NCBI RefSeq assembly: GCF_016907275.1
Contig: NZ_JAFBBP010000001.1
Coordinates: forward strand, 4,640,001-4,704,000
Source of the DNA: Micromonospora luteifusca
GTDB lineage: Bacteria > Actinomycetota > Actinomycetes > Mycobacteriales > Micromonosporaceae
DNA: 64,000 nucleotides
Direction of reading: 5' to 3'
Below are positions 10,838 to 44,332 of this stretch, one piece after another. Both the position numbers and the translations under genes were made by a program. The notes below the pieces were generated by a model that was given only the letters and a program-made list of their open reading frames with translations, did not search any database and was not told the DNA's origin. How positions within the stretch are numbered: position 1 is the first letter of the stretch; each line of letters begins with the position of its first letter.

Positions 10838-10867
10838 TTGACCACCTTGATCGGCCGGGACGACACT
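10838..10867 (+). promoter_or_regulatory. Candidate promoter of the permease cluster
   Basis: TTGACC (10838-10843) and GACACT (10862-10867) are separated by 18 nt and lie about 40 nt before the permease start, a reasonable housekeeping-sigma promoter. Confidence 0.5.
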
Positions 10868-10907
10868 TTGCGCACTCGCACGCGGAACCACCTCAGGGAG
10901 GTGTGCA

Positions 10908-12494
10908 GTGGCAACGACCCCCGTGCCAACCGCCGAGCAACCGATGGACGACGACGCCCGACGGCTCGCCGAACTCGGCTACAAACAGGAGTTGCGCCGC
11001 AAGTGGAGCGGCTTCTCCAACTTCGCCATCTCGTTCTCGATCATCTCGATCCTGGCCGGCTGCTTCACCACCTTCGGTCAGGCGTGGAACAACGGCGGGC
11101 CGGTCGCCATCTCCTGGGGCTGGCCGCTGATCTCGCTGTTCATCCTGATCATCGGCTTCTGCATGGCGGAGCTGGTGTCGGCGTACCCGACCGCGGGCGG
11201 GATCTACTGGTGGGCGGCCACCATGGGTCGCCCGGTGCACGGGTGGTTCACCGGCTGGCTGAACCTGATCGGGCTGGTGGCGGTCACCGCCTCGGTCGAC
11301 TACGGCTGCGCGACGTTTCTCAACCTCACCCTGTCGGCGCTCTTCGACGGCTGGGCCGGGACACTGCGTCAGGCATTCGTCCTGTTCGTGATCATCCTGG
11401 CGCTGCACGGAATGATCAACATCTTCGGGCACCGGATCATCGACGTACTCCAGAACGTCTCGGTCTGGTGGCACGTGGCCGGCGCGGCCGTCGTGGTGGC
11501 CATCCTGGTCTTCGTGCCGGACAACCACCAGAGTTTCCAGTTCGTGTTCACCGAGCGGTTCAACAACTCCGGCTTCGGTGACGGGGACATCGGCGGGCTG
11601 ACGTTCTGGTTCTACGTGTTGCCGCTGGGCTTCCTGCTGACCCAGTACACGATCACCGGCTTCGACGCCTGCGCACACGTCTCCGAGGAGACCCGGGGCG
11701 CCTCGCAGGCCGCCGCCCGCGGGCTCTGGCAGTCGATCTTCTACTCGGCGATCGGTGGCTGGATCCTGCTGCTGGCGTTCCTCTTCGCGGCCACCGACGT
11801 CGAGGCGGTCAACGCCGCGGGCGGGTTCTCCGGTGCCATCTTCGAGTCCGCGCTGACCCCGGTCTTCTTCAAGGTCGTCATCATCATCTCCACCATCGGC
11901 CAGTTCTTCTGCGGAATGAGTTGCGTGACGTCGATGAGCCGCATGGCGTACGCGTTCAGCCGCGACCGGGCGGTGCCCGGCTGGCGGCTCTGGTCGAAGG
12001 TCGACCGCAACGGCACCCCGGTCAACGCGATCATCGGCGCCACCCTGGCGGGCCTCGTGCTCACCCTGCCGGCCCTCTACGAGAGCTCGGCCGGCATCCC
12101 GATCGCCTTCTACGCGGTGGTCTCCGTCGCGGTGCTCGGGCTCTACCTGTCCTTCCTCATCCCGATCGCGCTACGACTACGGATGGGTGACAGGTTCGTT
12201 CCGGGGCCGTGGACGCTGGGGCGGAAGTACAAACTGCTCGGCTGGATCGCGGTCGTCGAGATCGCGGTCATCGCGGTCTACTTCGTGCTGCCGATCGTGC
12301 CCGCCGGGGTGCCCGGCAACGACGGGTTCACCTGGTCGGCCGTCAACTACGCGCCGCTGGCTGTCGGCGGGGTGCTGCTGGTGGTCGCCGTCTGGTGGTA
12401 TGCCTCGGCTCGCAGGTGGTTCACCGGCCCGGTCCGTACCGTCGAGGAGCCGGCCGCCAGGTCAGAGCCTGTGGCGGTCGACGGGTCCGATTGA
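10908..12494 (+). CDS. APC-family amino acid/amine permease
   Basis: 528 residues from a GTG with GGGAGG 7 nt upstream. About twelve hydrophobic helices follow a polar N-terminus (ARRLAELGYKQELRRKWSGFSNFAISFSIISI), which with ELVSAYPTAGGIYWWAA and ITGFDACAHVSEETRGAS is characteristic of the APC subgroup that imports GABA, polyamines or ethanolamine-type amines by proton symport. Being first in a cluster with a glutamine-synthetase-like ligase suggests it brings in the amine that the ligase glutamylates. Transmembrane and family assignment sure; substrate inferred. Confidence 0.92.
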   Translation: MATTPVPTAEQPMDDDARRLAELGYKQELRRKWSGFSNFAISFSIISILAGCFTTFGQAWNNGGPVAISWGWPLISLFILIIGFCMAELVSAYPTAGGIYWWAATMGRPVHGWFTGWLNLIGLVAVTASVDYGCATFLNLTLSALFDGWAGTLRQAFVLFVIILALHGMINIFGHRIIDVLQNVSVWWHVAGAAVVVAILVFVPDNHQSFQFVFTERFNNSGFGDGDIGGLTFWFYVLPLGFLLTQYTITGFDACAHVSEETRGASQAAARGLWQSIFYSAIGGWILLLAFLFAATDVEAVNAAGGFSGAIFESALTPVFFKVVIIISTIGQFFCGMSCVTSMSRMAYAFSRDRAVPGWRLWSKVDRNGTPVNAIIGATLAGLVLTLPALYESSAGIPIAFYAVVSVAVLGLYLSFLIPIALRLRMGDRFVPGPWTLGRKYKLLGWIAVVEIAVIAVYFVLPIVPAGVPGNDGFTWSAVNYAPLAVGGVLLVVAVWWYASARRWFTGPVRTVEEPAARSEPVAVDGSD

Positions 12495-12599
12495 CCCGTG
12501 CCCGGCCGGGGTCAGGGCTGCGTGGTTTGCCGTCGGCTGGGCCGGGGGCATTGACGGTGATCCGGATTACCAGTAGACCTTGGTGATGGAGGCCCGCTG

Positions 12600-13964
12600 A
12601 TGAGCAGAACGCCGTTTTCGCTGGAAGAGTTGCGGGTCGCCGTCCAGGCCGGTGAGATCGACACCGTGGTGCTGGCCCTCGTCGACATGCAGGGCCGCCT
12701 GCAGGGCAAACGGTTCCACGCGCCCTACTTCCTCGACGAGGTGGCCGTCAACGGCAGCGAGGGTTGCAACTATCTGCTCGCCGTCGACGTCGACATGAAC
12801 ACCGTCGACGGGTACGCGATGTCGAGCTGGGAGCGCGGCTACGGCGACTTCGCGATGGTGCCGGATTTCGGCACGTTGCGCCGGATGCCCTGGCAACCGG
12901 GCTCCGCGTTGCTGCTGGCCGACCTGGCCTGGCTCGACGGGTCGGGTGACGTGGTCGCCTCACCCCGGCAGATCCTGCGTCGGCAGCTGGACCGGCTGGC
13001 CGAGCACGGGCTGACCGCGTACGCCGGCACCGAACTGGAGTTCGTGCTGTTCCGCGACTCGTACGAGGATGCCTGGCGGCGCGGCTACCGCGACCTCACC
13101 CCGGCCAACCAGTACAACGTGGATTACTCGCTGCTCGGCACCGCCCGGGTGGAGCCGCTACTGCGCCGGATCCGCACCGAGATGGCCGGCGCCGGGCTCA
13201 CGCCGGAGAGCGCCAAGGGTGAGTGCAACCTCGGCCAGCACGAGATCGCCTTCCGCTACGACGAGGCGGTCGCCTGCGCCGACCACCACGTGATCTACAA
13301 GAACGGGGCCAAGGAGATCGCCGCCCAGGAGGGCATGGCGATCACCTTCATGGCCAAGCCGAACGAGCGGGAGGGCAACTCCTGCCACATCCACTTCTCG
13401 CTGCGCGACACCACTGGGGCCTCGGCGATGCTCGGCGACGGGCCGGCGCACCTGTCGCAGACCGGGCAGCGGGTGCTCGCCGGGCTGCTCGCCACCATGC
13501 GGGAGTTCAGCCTGCTCTTCGCGCCGAACATCAACTCCTACAAGCGCTACCAGCCGGGCTCGTTCGCTCCGACCGCGCTGCGCTGGGGTGTGGACAACCG
13601 CACCTGCGCGTTGCGGGTGGTGGGGCACGGGCAGGGCATGCGGGTGGAGAACCGGGTGCCCGGCGCTGACGTCAACCCGTACCTGGCGATCGCCGGGCTG
13701 GTCGCGGGCGCGCTGCACGGCATCGGCGGGGAGCTCGACCTGGGGGAGGAGTGCACCGGCAACGCGTACGACGACCCGGAGGCCGAGCGGGTCCCCGGCA
13801 CCCTGCGCGACGCACTGGCCCTGTGGGAGGGCTCCACGGTGGCCAGGGAGGCGTTCGGCCCCGAGGTGGTGGCCCACTACGCCAACCAGGCGAAGGTGGA
13901 ACTAGCGGCCTTCGACGCCGCGGTGACGGACTGGGAGCTGACCCGTGGCTTCGAACGCCTCTAG
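12600..13964 (+). CDS. Glutamine-synthetase-like gamma-glutamyl amine ligase (GlnA3/GlnA4/PuuA type)
   Basis: 454 residues, a single GS fold with N-terminal beta-grasp (LALVDMQGRLQGKRFHAPYFL) and catalytic barrel (GTELEFVLFRD, ESAKGECNLGQHEIAFRYDEA, GNSCHIHFSL, NINSYKRYQPGSFAPTALRWG, VENRVPGADVNPYLAIAG). It lacks the adenylylation loop of assimilatory GSI and resembles Streptomyces GlnA3 (polyamines) and GlnA4 (ethanolamine), which ligate glutamate to an amine using ATP. GGAGG lies 7 nt before the ATG. The context (permease before; aldehyde dehydrogenase, SDR and PuuD-like hydrolase after) supports catabolic glutamylation rather than nitrogen assimilation. Confidence 0.92.
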   Translation: MSRTPFSLEELRVAVQAGEIDTVVLALVDMQGRLQGKRFHAPYFLDEVAVNGSEGCNYLLAVDVDMNTVDGYAMSSWERGYGDFAMVPDFGTLRRMPWQPGSALLLADLAWLDGSGDVVASPRQILRRQLDRLAEHGLTAYAGTELEFVLFRDSYEDAWRRGYRDLTPANQYNVDYSLLGTARVEPLLRRIRTEMAGAGLTPESAKGECNLGQHEIAFRYDEAVACADHHVIYKNGAKEIAAQEGMAITFMAKPNEREGNSCHIHFSLRDTTGASAMLGDGPAHLSQTGQRVLAGLLATMREFSLLFAPNINSYKRYQPGSFAPTALRWGVDNRTCALRVVGHGQGMRVENRVPGADVNPYLAIAGLVAGALHGIGGELDLGEECTGNAYDDPEAERVPGTLRDALALWEGSTVAREAFGPEVVAHYANQAKVELAAFDAAVTDWELTRGFERL

Positions 13965-13976
13965 AACCCCCACCTC

Positions 13977-14050
13977 CGCGATCTTGCACTTTGTGTCGTC
14001 GATCTGTGGGGAATCGTCGCCCATGTCGGGGCAGCAACTGCAAGATCGCG
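13977..14050. repeat. Inverted-repeat element between ligase and aldehyde dehydrogenase genes
   Basis: CGCGATCTTGCA (13977-13988) and TGCAAGATCGCG (14039-14050) are perfect 12-bp inverted arms separated by 50 nt, filling nearly the whole 108-bp gap between two co-directional genes. The GATCTTG core recurs in other gaps of this window (49078, 61107), so it looks like a dispersed REP-like extragenic element. Confidence 0.65.
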
Positions 14051-14072
14051 CGGAGGAAGGGCGGGTCAGGGC

Positions 14073-15428
14073 GTGACTGTCGTGGTGGATCCGGCTTCCG
14101 GGGTTGGGTTTCGGGACGTTCTGGGGGCCTCTGTTGACGAGGTCGACGCGGCGATCGCGCGAGCCGCGAAAGCCTTCGAGACGTGGCGGGGCGTGGCCCC
14201 GGGGGATCGGGCGCGACTCCTGCGGCGGTTCGCCGCTGTCGTCGACGCGCATCTGGACGAGCTGGCCGCGCTGGAGGTCCGCAACGCAGGTCACACCATC
14301 GGCAACGCCCGGTGGGAGGCCGGCAACGTCCGCGACGTCCTGGATTACTACGCCGGGGCGCCGGAGCGGCTGACCGGAAGGCAGATCCCGGTGCCCGGCG
14401 GGCTGGACGTCACCTTCCACGAGCCACTCGGCGTGGTCGGGGTGATCGTGCCGTGGAACTTCCCGATGCCGATCGCCGCCTGGGGGTTCGTCCCGGCCCT
14501 CGCTGCCGGCAACACCGTGGTGCTCAAACCCGCCGAGTTGACCCCGCTCACCGCGCTGCGGCTGGCCGAGTTGGCCGGCGAGGCGGGCCTGCCCGCCGAC
14601 GTGTTCATCGTCGTACCGGGTGAGGGTGGGGTGGTAGGGGAGCGGTTCGTCAGCCACCCGGCGGTTCGCAAGATCTGCTTCACCGGCTCCACCGAGGTCG
14701 GCACCCGGATCATGGCTGGCTGCGCCGCCCAGGTGAAGCGACTCACCCTGGAGTTGGGCGGCAAGAGCGCGAACATCGTGTTCGCCGACGCCGACCTGGA
14801 ACGCGCCGCCGCGACCGCGCCGGGCGCGGTCTTCGACAACGCCGGCCAGGACTGCTGCGCACGGTCGCGGATCCTGGTCCAACGTCCGGTGTACGACCGC
14901 TTCCTGGCACTACTCGAACCAGCGGTACGCGCGGTGCGGGTGGAGGACCCGTCCCGGGAGACCGCCGAGATGGGCCCCCTGATCTCCGCGGCTCACCGGG
15001 ACCGGGTCGCCGGCTACCTGGCCGACGCGACGGTCGCCTTCACCGGCTCGTGCCCCGACGGCCCCGGCTTCTGGCACGCGCCCACGGTGCTGCTGGCCGA
15101 CTCGCCGGCCGACCGGCACTGGCGGGAGGAGGTCTTCGGCCCGGTGGTCTCGGTGCTGCCGTTCGACGACGAGGCCGACGCGGTCCGGCTCGCCAACGAC
15201 ACCGAGTACGGGCTCTCCGGCTCGATCTGGACCCGGGACGTGGGTCGCGCCCTCCGCCTGGCCCGCGCCGTCGAGTCGGGCAACCTCAGCGTCAACTCGC
15301 ACTCGTCGGTGCGCTACTGGACCCCGTTCGGCGGGATGAAGCGCTCCGGGCTCGGCCGCGAACTGGGCCCGGACGCGCTGCACTCCTTCACGGACGTCAA
15401 GAACGTGTTCATCGCGACGGAGGAGTGA
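14073..15428 (+). CDS. NAD(P)-dependent aldehyde dehydrogenase
   Basis: 451 residues, slightly shorter than the usual 480-500 because the N-terminus is compact. Key motifs: VPWNFPMPIAAWG (cofactor), FTGSTEVGT, LELGGKSANIVF (general base Glu) and GQDCCARSRI with the nucleophilic Cys near residue 258; the C-terminal PFGGMKRSGLGRELGP is present. It oxidises an aldehyde to the acid. In this cluster the likely substrate is a gamma-glutamyl aldehyde (the PuuC-like step). GTG start with AGGAAGGGCGG upstream. The SDR gene begins 6 nt after its stop. Confidence 0.93.
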   Translation: MTVVVDPASGVGFRDVLGASVDEVDAAIARAAKAFETWRGVAPGDRARLLRRFAAVVDAHLDELAALEVRNAGHTIGNARWEAGNVRDVLDYYAGAPERLTGRQIPVPGGLDVTFHEPLGVVGVIVPWNFPMPIAAWGFVPALAAGNTVVLKPAELTPLTALRLAELAGEAGLPADVFIVVPGEGGVVGERFVSHPAVRKICFTGSTEVGTRIMAGCAAQVKRLTLELGGKSANIVFADADLERAAATAPGAVFDNAGQDCCARSRILVQRPVYDRFLALLEPAVRAVRVEDPSRETAEMGPLISAAHRDRVAGYLADATVAFTGSCPDGPGFWHAPTVLLADSPADRHWREEVFGPVVSVLPFDDEADAVRLANDTEYGLSGSIWTRDVGRALRLARAVESGNLSVNSHSSVRYWTPFGGMKRSGLGRELGPDALHSFTDVKNVFIATEE

Positions 15429-15433
15429 CGCCA

Positions 15434-16201
15434 GTGCAGGGTCGTTTGCAGGACCGGGTGGCCGTGGTCACCGGGGCGGGCAGCGGGATCGGGTTGGCCA
15501 CCGTGCGGCGATTCGCCGCCGAGGGGGCCCGGGTGGTCTGCGTGGACATCGACACGGCCGCCGGCGAGAAGGCCGCCGAGGAGTGCGGCGGCGAGTTCGT
15601 GGCCACCGACGTCGCCGACGAATCAGCGGTACGCGACCTGTTCGACGGGGTGGCCGACCGGCACGGGCGGGTCGACATCGCGTTCAACAACGCCGGCATC
15701 TCCCCACCGGACGACGACTCCATCCTGGACACCGGTCTCGACGCCTGGGAACGGGTGCTGCGGGTCAACACCACGAGCGTCTACCTCTGCTGCAAGTACG
15801 CCATACCGCACATGCGCCGTCAGGGCAGAGGGTCGATCATCAACACCGCCTCGTTCGTGGCGTTGATGGGTGCCGCCACGTCACAGATCGCGTACACCGC
15901 CAGCAAGGGCGGCGTGCTGGCGATGACCCGGGAGCTGGGCGTGCAGTTCGCCCGCGAGGGCATCCGGGTCAACGCGCTCTGCCCCGGCCCGGTGGCCACC
16001 CCATTGCTGCTGGAACTGTTCGCCGCCGACCCGGAGCGGGCGGCCCGTCGACTGGTGCACGTGCCGATGGGTCGGTTCGGGCAACCGGAGGAGATCGCCG
16101 CCGCGGTGGCGTTCCTGGCCAGCGACGACGCCTCGTTCATGACCGCCGCGCAGTTCGTGGTCGACGGCGGCATCACGGGCGCGTACGTCACCCCGCTGTG
16201 A
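15434..16201 (+). CDS. Short-chain dehydrogenase/reductase (SDR)
   Basis: 255 residues from the GTG at 15434, with AGGAG 8 nt upstream inside the end of the ALDH gene. Classical SDR motifs: TGAGSGIG (NAD(P) loop), VDIDTA (acidic end of beta-2, favouring NAD), NNAG, and YTASKGG with catalytic Tyr near residue 153. It interconverts an alcohol and carbonyl. Within the cluster it could oxidise a gamma-glutamyl amino alcohol to the aldehyde used by the ALDH (inference). Its stop codon lies inside the first unit of a 59-bp tandem repeat. Confidence 0.92.
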   Translation: MQGRLQDRVAVVTGAGSGIGLATVRRFAAEGARVVCVDIDTAAGEKAAEECGGEFVATDVADESAVRDLFDGVADRHGRVDIAFNNAGISPPDDDSILDTGLDAWERVLRVNTTSVYLCCKYAIPHMRRQGRGSIINTASFVALMGAATSQIAYTASKGGVLAMTRELGVQFAREGIRVNALCPGPVATPLLLELFAADPERAARRLVHVPMGRFGQPEEIAAAVAFLASDDASFMTAAQFVVDGGITGAYVTPL

Positions 16202-16375
16202 GCGCGAGAAGTGAGCCGGTTCTGCGAGCCCCGCAGTCGCGAACGGTGCCGGCCCTGTGAGCGCGAGAAGTGAGCCGGTTCTGCGAGCCCCGCAGTCGCG
16301 AACGGTGCCGGCCCTGTGAGCGCGAGGAGTGAGCCGGTTCTGCGAGCCCCGCAGTCGCGAACGGTGCCGGTCCTG
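16198..16375 (+). repeat. Three tandem 59-bp repeats between SDR and hydrolase genes
   Basis: Units begin at 16198, 16257 and 16316, each starting GTGAGCGCGAG(A/G)AGTGAGCC and containing CTGCGAGCCCCGCAG, a 5-bp hairpin, then TCGCGAACGG. Units 1 and 2 are identical; unit 3 has two visible changes. The same repeat core occurs in opposite orientation at 24315-24507. Unit 1 supplies the SDR stop and unit 3 supplies an in-frame GTG leading into the next gene. Confidence 0.95.
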
Positions 16376-17125
16376 AGGCGCCGGCCGCTGATCGGGATCA
16401 GCGCGTACGTCGAGCCCGCCGACTGGGCGGTCTGGCGGGGCGTGCCGGCGGTGCTGGTGCCCGAGGCGTATGTGCGGGCGGTCACGGTCGCGGGGGGCCG
16501 GGCGGTGGTCCTGCCGCCGGACGACGAGGACGGCGACGTGCTGGCCGTCCTCGACGGGCTGCTCCTGGCCGGTGGCGCCGATGTGGGCCCGGGACGGTAC
16601 GGGCAGCCACCGCACCCGCGGACCGAGGACCGGCCGGACCGGGATGCCGGTGAGCTGACCCTGCTGGCCGCCGCGCTCGCCGCAGAGCTGCCGCTGCTGG
16701 GCGTGTGCCGGGGTATGCAACTGCTCGCCGTGGCCTACGGCGGCACCCTGCACCAGCACCTGCCCGACGTGGTCGGTCACGACGAGCACCGTCCGGCGCC
16801 CGGCGTCTACGGCTCCCACGCGGTGCGGTTCGCGGCGGGCAGCCTCGCGGCGACGGTGTTGGCCGGGGTGCACCGGGTCAACTCGTACCACCACCAGGCG
16901 GTCGCCGATGCGGGCCGGCTCGCCGTCACCGGTTGGGCCGAGGACGGCGTGATCGAGGCGGTGGAGGACCGGGCCCTGCCGTTCGTGCTCGGCGTGCAGT
17001 GGCATCCGGAAAACGAGCCGGACCCGCGTCCCATCACGGCGCTGGTCGAGGCGGCTGCTCGGCGCCCGCCGGTCGTCGCGGCCCGGGACGAAGCCGTACG
17101 TCTCGCCCGGCGTCACCGAGTGTGA
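16364..17125 (+). CDS. Class I glutamine-amidotransferase-like hydrolase (gamma-glutamyl amide hydrolase, PuuD-like)
   Basis: 253 residues from the GTG at 16364. The nucleophile elbow GVCRGMQLL (Cys near 113), VNSYHHQAV and the C-terminal VQWHPENE (His/Glu of the triad) identify a peptidase C26-type hydrolase. PuuD releases glutamate from gamma-glutamyl-GABA; here it would cleave the final gamma-glutamyl amide of the pathway. An upstream in-frame GTG at 16316 would add 16 residues encoded entirely by the tandem repeat, which I regard as artefactual, although the repeat may have displaced the native ribosome site. Confidence 0.88.
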   Translation: MPVLRRRPLIGISAYVEPADWAVWRGVPAVLVPEAYVRAVTVAGGRAVVLPPDDEDGDVLAVLDGLLLAGGADVGPGRYGQPPHPRTEDRPDRDAGELTLLAAALAAELPLLGVCRGMQLLAVAYGGTLHQHLPDVVGHDEHRPAPGVYGSHAVRFAAGSLAATVLAGVHRVNSYHHQAVADAGRLAVTGWAEDGVIEAVEDRALPFVLGVQWHPENEPDPRPITALVEAAARRPPVVAARDEAVRLARRHRV

Positions 17126-17172: not shown

Positions 17173-17724
17173 ATGGGGAAGGTCTATCCGGAGATCGACG
17201 GTCGACTGCGCGACTTCATCCTGGGCCAGCCGGTCTTCTTCGTGGCCACCGCGCCGTCCGGCGCCGAGGGGCACGTCAATGTCTCACCGAAGGGCATGCG
17301 GGGCACGTTCGTGCTTCTCAACCCGCACCGCGTGGCCTACCTCGACTATCACGGCAGCGGGGCGGAGACCATCGCCCACCTGCGGGACAACGGTCGGATC
17401 ACGGTGATGTTCTGTGCCTTCGACGGGCCACCGAAGATCGTCCGGTTGCAGGGCCGGGGCAGCAGCGTCGCGGTGACCGAGGAGACCTTCGCCGAGCGGA
17501 TCGCCGAGTTTCCCGCACCGCCGGACGTGCACGCCGTCCGGGCTGTGATCACCGTCGAGGTGGACCGGGTCAGCGACTCCTGCGGCTACGGCGTGCCACT
17601 GATGGACTTCCGCGCCGAACGCGACCTGTTGCTCACCGCGCACTCCCGACGTACCGCCGACGACCTGGCGGTCTATCGGGCCACCAGGAACGCGGCGAGC
17701 ATCGACGGACTGCCGGTCTTCTGA
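17173..17724 (+). CDS. Pyridoxamine 5'-phosphate oxidase-like flavin/F420-fold protein
   Basis: 183 residues from the ATG at 17173 (GGGAGG 8 nt upstream). The N-terminal half has the split-barrel pattern FILGQPVFFVATAPSGAEGHVNVSPKGM and VAYLDYHGSGAETIAHLRDNGRITVMFCAF typical of PNPOx-like proteins; the C-terminal part includes a CGYGVPLMDF motif found in a subgroup of these proteins. Cofactor may be FMN or F420; reaction unknown. It follows the PuuD-like gene by 47 nt and may be the last gene of the cluster, but no functional link is evident. Confidence 0.85.
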   Translation: MGKVYPEIDGRLRDFILGQPVFFVATAPSGAEGHVNVSPKGMRGTFVLLNPHRVAYLDYHGSGAETIAHLRDNGRITVMFCAFDGPPKIVRLQGRGSSVAVTEETFAERIAEFPAPPDVHAVRAVITVEVDRVSDSCGYGVPLMDFRAERDLLLTAHSRRTADDLAVYRATRNAASIDGLPVF

Positions 17725-24326: not shown

Positions 24327-24507
24327 GGCAGTGCCTTTGTTCGCGACTGCGGGGCTTGCAACCCCGGCTCACTCCTCGCGCTCACGGTGCCGGCTTTTGT
24401 TCGCGACTGCGGGGCTCGCAACCCCGGCTCACTCCTCGCGCTCACGGTGCCGGCTTTTGTTCGCGGCTGCGGGGCTCGCAACCCCGGCTCACTCCTCGCG
24501 CTCACGG
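24315..24507 (-). repeat. Three tandem 60-bp repeats, same family as at 16.2 kb
   Basis: On the minus strand, units repeat every 60 bp with GTGAGCGCGAGGAGTGAGCC, then GGTTGCGAGCCCCGCAGTCG and CGAAC; complete units lie at 24340-24399 and 24400-24459, a partial one at 24460-24507, and a partial end unit at 24315-24339 runs into the start of the nucleotidyltransferase-like gene. The core matches the array at 16198-16375; the last about 12 bp of each unit differ between loci. Confidence 0.93.
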
Positions 24508-44143: not shown

Positions 44144-44332
44144 ACGGCGTCCCACCTGAAGAAAACGGGCCGCGCGACCACCCGAGAGGGAGCCGGTCAG
44201 CGTACCGGTCTCCGGTAGTGGCCCCCGGGAACCCGGCATTCTGCCGACCACCCGGGCGCTTCGATCGAAGACCGGCCGGCTGAGCAGCTCCCCGATGTCG
44301 TGGGCCCACGACGCGAAGGAGCACGACAGCAC

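Follow-up and report, generated by a model that had tools for sequence, protein, structure and literature searches.

The closest described relative of the locus analysed here is the glnA4 cluster of Streptomyces, which spans SCO1610–SCO1615 and is reported to comprise a membrane protein, a short-chain dehydrogenase/reductase (SDR), an aldehyde dehydrogenase (ALDH), glnA4, a regulator, a putative ethanolamine transporter and a glutamine amidotransferase (PMC6529630, 2019). According to that paper, S. coelicolor GlnA4 forms γ-glutamylethanolamide in vitro, and SCO1611, SCO1612 and SCO1615 are predicted for the next three steps; the same four steps are restated in a 2022 review (PMC9397018). The ethanolamine γ-glutamylase (eto) operon of Phaeobacter sp. 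MED193 was assigned the same four predicted steps in a study with proteomics (PMC10132767, 2023), in which the operon proteins rise on phosphorylethanolamine, a TRAP binding protein binds ethanolamine at 7.9 µM and the operon is related, through cited work, to Chromohalobacter salexigens and Agrobacterium tumefaciens. Here we describe a five-gene cluster of Micromonospora luteifusca, which lies in a 64,000-nucleotide stretch (the window) at positions 4,640,001–4,704,000 of the 7.16-Mb single-contig genome and which, by its predicted function, likely represents in Micromonospora the glnA4 ethanolamine-utilisation cluster of actinobacteria.

The five genes lie on the plus strand in the order permease, ligase, ALDH, SDR and Peptidase C26 hydrolase, as a first, sequence-only reading of the window had described, and each protein scores far above its curated Pfam cut-off. 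The APC-superfamily permease (10908–12494; PF13520 AA_permease_2, 194 bits) has a GTG start codon after GGGAGGTG and is separated by a 105-nt gap (12495–12599), which holds no regulator gene, from a GlnA4-type ligase resembling glutamine synthetase (GS), the predicted γ-glutamylethanolamide synthetase (12600–13964; PF00120 Gln-synt_C, 324 bits). After 108 nt that contain a strong inverted repeat comes the ALDH, a predicted γ-glutamylacetaldehyde dehydrogenase (14073–15428; PF00171 Aldedh, 513 bits), followed at a spacing of 5 nt by the SDR, a predicted NAD-dependent γ-glutamylethanolamide dehydrogenase (15434–16201; adh_short_C2, 234 bits). The last gene encodes a PuuD-like C26 hydrolase, the predicted γ-glutamylglycine amidohydrolase (16316–17125; PF07722, 202 bits). 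The sequence-only reading had placed the cluster at 10838–17125; we agree on its end, and its start at 10838 lies 70 nt upstream of the permease GTG.

In the proposed route, the permease would take up ethanolamine and the ligase would spend ATP to join it to the γ-carboxyl of glutamate, giving γ-glutamylethanolamide. The NAD-dependent SDR would oxidise the alcohol of this compound to γ-glutamylacetaldehyde, the ALDH would convert the latter to γ-glutamylglycine, and the C26 hydrolase would release glycine and glutamate. Because hydrolysis would return glutamate, this would be recycled and neither free acetaldehyde nor a compartment would be needed. The earlier statement that Streptomyces GlnA4 glutamylates ethanolamine is borne out by PMC6529630, and the related statement that only this first step is well established also holds: in the actinobacterial literature that we found, enzyme-level proof concerns step 1. 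The novelty that the sequence-only reading implied does not survive, since the same gene set and four steps were predicted for S. coelicolor in 2019 (PMC6529630) and reviewed in 2022 (PMC9397018), and an operon for these four predicted steps was published for Phaeobacter in 2023 (PMC10132767). Both the pathway idea and the gene set have thus been published, and the cluster is an ordinary though well-preserved example. A literature search that included Micromonospora returned no title or abstract opening describing it in that genus.

The link to the published cluster was examined with the quantitative PCR primers of PMC6529630, which were placed on 13 loci out of the 33 with Streptomyces in their title. 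At all 13, the glnA4 (SCO1613) reverse primer fell within the ligase gene with 0–2 mismatches, the SCO1614 reverse primer within a GntR gene with 0–3 mismatches and the SCO1612 'dw' primer within the ALDH gene with 0–1 mismatches; the remaining primers lay in the expected gene at 8 (glnA4 forward), 11 (1614F) and 10 (1612up) of these loci. The encoded proteins are 70–72% (ligase), 66–72% (ALDH) and 76–79% (SDR) identical to those of the window. The primer placements indicate orthology between the window genes and those of the described glnA4 cluster, and the regulator EpuRI is very probably of the GntR type. The two clusters share a GlnA4-type ligase, an ALDH, an SDR and an amidotransferase-type hydrolase (C26 in the loci examined), as well as a permease in several species, and their four predicted steps are identical. 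The window, however, has another APC permease and no EpuRI-type regulator that we could find, and its hydrolase is encoded downstream on the same strand, whereas the Streptomyces hydrolase gene lies upstream on the opposite strand.

When 121 genomes of the family were searched, 89, among them that of the window, proved to contain ligase relatives (E 1e-60 or better). From these we picked 40 loci with about 6 kb of flank for spread and long contigs, leaving the short loci L001–L034 out of the counts, and we added 80 named GTDB loci, the best 80 of a longer list, many of them clipped by contig ends. Partner genes were scored at identities of at least 50% (SDR, ALDH), 40% (C26, permease) or 45% (PPOX) with 70% of the gene length. 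Among the 40 family loci, 36 have the SDR and 35 have both ALDH and SDR, in every case on the ligase strand; 31 also have the C26 hydrolase, and 17 of them the permease as well, which is found at 19 family loci overall. ALDH and SDR accompany the ligase, on its strand, at 71 of the 80 named loci, and 61 of these also have the C26 hydrolase (73 and 63 if partial matches are included), and for the 50 named loci of at least 15 kb these numbers are 47 and 43. Because relatives of the ligase are so widespread and ALDH and SDR are kept beside it on the same strand, we regard the cluster as a real unit rather than a chance neighbourhood. The published Streptomyces gene set reaches through much of the genus and family of the window, and the ligase nearest to the window's among the 80 best named loci, that of Micromonospora parva, is 94% identical.

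To compare the ligase with S. coelicolor GlnA4, the published catalytic positions of the latter (PMC6529630) were compared with the window protein at offsets from −40 to +40. All 13 fixed positions matched, with an offset of −11 up to position 276 and −9 afterwards, a change that corresponds to one 2-residue length difference. GlnA4 F331 falls on F322 of the window protein, placing a Phe where true glutamine synthetases have the flap Glu. This substitution, which is the same as in GlnA4, argues against an ordinary GS that merely happens to lie beside unrelated catabolic genes. That explanation can appeal to the Gln-synt_C domain and is otherwise scarcely credible, as the protein reaches only 196 of 429 bits with the GlnA equivalog model and 222 of 470 with the type III GS model, the genome encodes three other GS-domain proteins (27–29% identical to the ligase) and the partner genes are conserved. 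GS proper was rejected on the GlnA score and the missing flap Glu. The nearest chains in the PDB are 11zs (398 bits) and 5dm3 (382 bits), the second of which we take to be the C. salexigens enzyme.

The other proteins retain the residues expected of their families. The ALDH carries ELGG at 227 and GQDC at 258, presumably its catalytic motifs, and among the best 25 of its 43 NCBIfam matches none reaches the cut-off, the highest being PRK13473 (442 bits, cut-off 615). With 478.5 bits, the SDR exceeds the equivalog cut-off of NF004713 PRK06057 (404), and so do its counterparts at a Streptomyces locus (507) and at a metagenome-assembled genome locus (432); the Thermomicrobium SDR fails it (353). 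The name of this model, '3-oxoacyl-ACP reductase', is an annotation label, not a tested function. TGAGSGIG, D38, S140 and Y154xxxK158 are all present in the SDR, and we assume for them the customary motif roles and a preference for NAD; its closest structure is 4wec (369 bits). In the hydrolase, GVCRG at 129 and WHPE at 229 are taken to be catalytic, and none of its 23 NCBIfam matches reaches a cut-off.

An ALDH and a PuuD-like hydrolase are also common to the Puu putrescine pathway of E. coli (PuuABCD), which likewise glutamylates, oxidises twice and hydrolyses with related ligase, ALDH and hydrolase folds. We therefore considered γ-glutamylation of putrescine or spermidine, of the GlnA2, GlnA3 or Puu kind, with the oxidase encoded elsewhere in the genome. 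The window proteins, however, fall below the PuuA, PuuC and PuuD equivalog cut-offs (189 of 650, 329 of 850 and 94 of 266 bits), and the cluster lacks a PuuB-type oxidase. As the sequence-only reading had stated, there is no amine oxidase in the cluster: Pfam identified none among six scanned proteins, and the genome search gave no DAO or Amino_oxidase match at E 1e-20 or better within the window. The SDR, in turn, is kept at nearly all family loci. Membership of the Puu pathway was rejected on the model scores and the lack of an oxidase in the cluster.

The search for a PuuB-like or other amine oxidase elsewhere, which the sequence-only reading had suggested as a check, covered the window genome at E 1e-20 or better with DAO and Amino_oxidase models, none of them specific to PuuB, and was confined to that genome. 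The genes with a DAO domain encode ThiO, a glycerol-3-phosphate-dehydrogenase-like protein (under its cut-off) and a protein of the phytoene-desaturase family (a carotenoid desaturase); no copper amine oxidase (Cu_amine_oxid) was found in the genome, and the N-methyltryptophan oxidase model NF008425 gave weak genome matches only. Three of the six Amino_oxidase-domain matches exceed a cut-off: L092 as a protoporphyrinogen oxidase, L094 as a member of the phytoene-desaturase family and L096 as one of a family whose function is unknown. The check is answered only in part because the remaining three, L091, L093 and L095, reach no NCBIfam cut-off. They lend the polyamine explanation some support; we consider it highly unlikely all the same. 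The Eut ammonia-lyase pathway, which has the same proposed substrate, was rejected too, as neither EutB nor EutC was detected in the window genome in a search whose E. coli positive control matched.

The case for ethanolamine as the substrate is indirect and comes from permeases, Thermomicrobium and the proteobacterial clusters. Relatives of 'eat', a Thermomicrobium permease, are encoded no more than 3.1 kb from the ligase at 29 of the 80 named loci; five of these permeases were scanned with the ethanolamine permease model TIGR00908, and three exceed its cut-off of 381.75 (494, 538 and 545 bits) and two fall below it (344 and 351). The genes for the ligase, for an SDR with 57% identity to that of the window and for 'eat' are consecutive in Thermomicrobium roseum, whose permease passes TIGR00908 with 436 bits. 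A FadR/GntR-type regulator, probably EpuRI (for example L072, 7442–8212), is encoded near the ligase at 52 of the 80 named loci and 10 of the 40 family loci. Such a regulator is not defining, since the four annotated proteobacterial clusters described below carry RpiR or DeoR regulators.

Those clusters, from two Paracoccus, one Ruegeria and one Sinorhizobium (L058, L059, L060 and L062), combine a member of the ligase family with an ALDH, an iron-containing alcohol dehydrogenase that adjoins the ALDH, and an N-formylglutamate amidohydrolase. The ligase of Paracoccus denitrificans (L059) is 48% identical to that of the window, and the gene order at this locus is that of the Phaeobacter operon, whose proposed intermediates are identical to those of the window route. 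In these eto-type relatives, step 2 is assigned to the iron-containing alcohol dehydrogenase and step 4 to the N-formylglutamate amidohydrolase, and their ALDHs are just 32–35% identical to the window's, a comparison made through annotated relatives rather than the Phaeobacter sequences. For steps 2 and 4, these proteobacteria and the actinobacteria have enzymes of unrelated families. That unrelated alcohol dehydrogenases occupy one and the same step speaks for an amino-alcohol substrate, and the contrast between SDR plus C26 and iron-containing alcohol dehydrogenase plus N-formylglutamate-type hydrolase provides an independent argument for step 2 as an alcohol oxidation.

Glycine is a substrate of the bhc cycle. 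At L060 (7151–15131), in Paracoccus pantotrophus, bhcBCD, with an annotation for glyoxylate catabolism, come immediately after the cluster, a neighbourhood that fits glycine as the pathway product.

A number of observations weigh against assigning the window cluster to ethanolamine. Gene content, orthology and conserved catalytic residues are observed here; which substrate the organism uses, the cofactor and steps 2–4 are what we infer. Most of the 13 matching ligase residues are shared by GS-type enzymes generally and do not discriminate ethanolamine from other amines. Eleven of them do not vary among 11 aligned relatives of actinobacterial, thermomicrobial and proteobacterial origin and therefore mark the kind of ligase, not ethanolamine. 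The model-dependent pocket positions of GlnA4, compared at the same offset, match in two cases (D81 and D186) and differ in two (D69 and V189). The permease is of another APC type, scoring 37 bits against the 382 cut-off of TIGR00908 and 324 against the 598 of TIGR00907; it probably takes up an amine or amino alcohol. An ethanolamine-type permease occurs at none of the 40 family loci. At E 1e-10, an EpuRI-type regulator was found neither in the cluster nor in the window genome, nor in any of eight genomes of the genus (the window's included) or in G001; the positives of that search were G031, the source of the query, and G024. L091, L093 and L095 could be amine oxidases or something else.

The partner genes are also missing at some loci. 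Three loci of one genus (L035–L037, ligase 52–54% identical) lack ALDH, SDR and hydrolase, and Pfam analysis of 10 of the 28 open reading frames around L035 showed no ALDH, SDR, hydrolase or amine oxidase. L038 has no ALDH, and L044, with a ligase of 37% identity, has neither ALDH nor SDR and only the C26 hydrolase. In Micromonospora itself, L099–L101 show no hydrolase or permease of the window type nearby, and in M. radicis (L101, 8368–8588) the region separating ligase and SDR has just short pieces that match ALDH, which looks like a deletion of that gene. As a separate observation, one open reading frame at L035 encodes a lysine/ornithine monooxygenase.

Several of these points would suit a different or broader natural substrate handled by the same pathway logic, such as 3-amino-1-propanol, 2-amino-1-propanol or 1-amino-2-propanol, with γ-glutamyl-β-alanine, γ-glutamylalanine or a ketone as product. 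The non-ethanolamine type of the window permease, the failure to find an EpuRI-type regulator and the three Micromonospora loci without hydrolase and permease nearby favour such a substrate, and specificity is unreadable from sequence. The window ligase is, however, orthologous to the ethanolamine ligase GlnA4, and more than a third of the named clusters, the 29 noted above, stand beside an ethanolamine-type permease. Oxidation of 1-amino-2-propanol gives a ketone, which would leave the ALDH without a role. On balance another amino alcohol seems distinctly unlikely. The chemistry proposed by the sequence-only reading, ligation followed by SDR, ALDH and hydrolase steps on ethanolamine, stands as the best reading, given the glnA4 orthology, the missing EutB and EutC, the failing Puu models and the permeases of sister clusters. 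The cluster is a compact gene set for proving steps 2–4, which are no more than predicted in the actinobacterial literature that we found.

A more far-reaching scenario, which we think unlikely, is that a single ligase family became the core of a γ-glutamyl amino-alcohol route on two or more occasions, actinobacteria having recruited an SDR and a C26 hydrolase and proteobacteria an iron alcohol dehydrogenase together with an N-formylglutamate-type amidohydrolase. The ethanolamine-type permease would then have been replaced in the family and EpuRI lost in the genus, and Micromonospora may use the route under other control and for a different amino alcohol.

The junction between SDR and hydrolase holds three tandem units of a 59-nt repeat (16196–16375, plus strand), which is more unusual than the pathway itself and is no part of it. 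Its 34-nt core occurs in 31 copies at 20 sites in the genome with at most three mismatches (backward control, 0); the second site in the window is at 24399–24432 on the minus strand, and the others are L177–L194. All but one of 41 genomes of the genus, that of the window counted among the 40 positives, have a 47-nt form, again with up to three mismatches (control, 0). The repeat is interspersed and often tandem, and at 15 of the 20 sites the TGA near the start of the unit coincides exactly with the stop codon that ends an upstream frame; this test demanded an upstream frame open for 150 codons with the highest GC at codon position 3, and five sites fail it. By a lax test, 19 of 20 sites have, no more than 60 nt away, a candidate start codon for an open frame that follows. 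A single 59-nt unit folds no better than its shuffles, and a limited search found no literature on the repeat. The start of the hydrolase open reading frame (16316) falls within a repeat copy, and the true start is probably the GTG at 16364. Two related loci, L065 and L069, have no repeat at this junction, where the stop codon of the SDR gene and the start of the hydrolase gene overlap, and M. parva (L097) has one variant copy. In the window, the array has probably ended the coupling of the hydrolase to the SDR.

The inverted repeat between ligase and ALDH, GCGATCTTGCA...TGCAAGATCGC (13976–14050), has arms at 13978–13995 (plus) and 14032–14049 (minus, with two mismatches to the pattern). The 113-nt stretch around it (13961–14073) folds with a z-score of −3.7, and none of 200 shuffles was as good; it is possibly an intercistronic hairpin. 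Downstream of the cluster, a PPOX-type flavoprotein gene (17173–17724, plus strand; PF01243, 39.7 bits against a cut-off of 28.1) is a possible accessory gene and is found at 9 of the 40 family loci and 1 of the 80 named loci. Rfam identified no known RNA near the operon, and the sole match in the window above the gathering score is an Actino-pnp cis-regulatory RNA at 44204–44276 on the plus strand.

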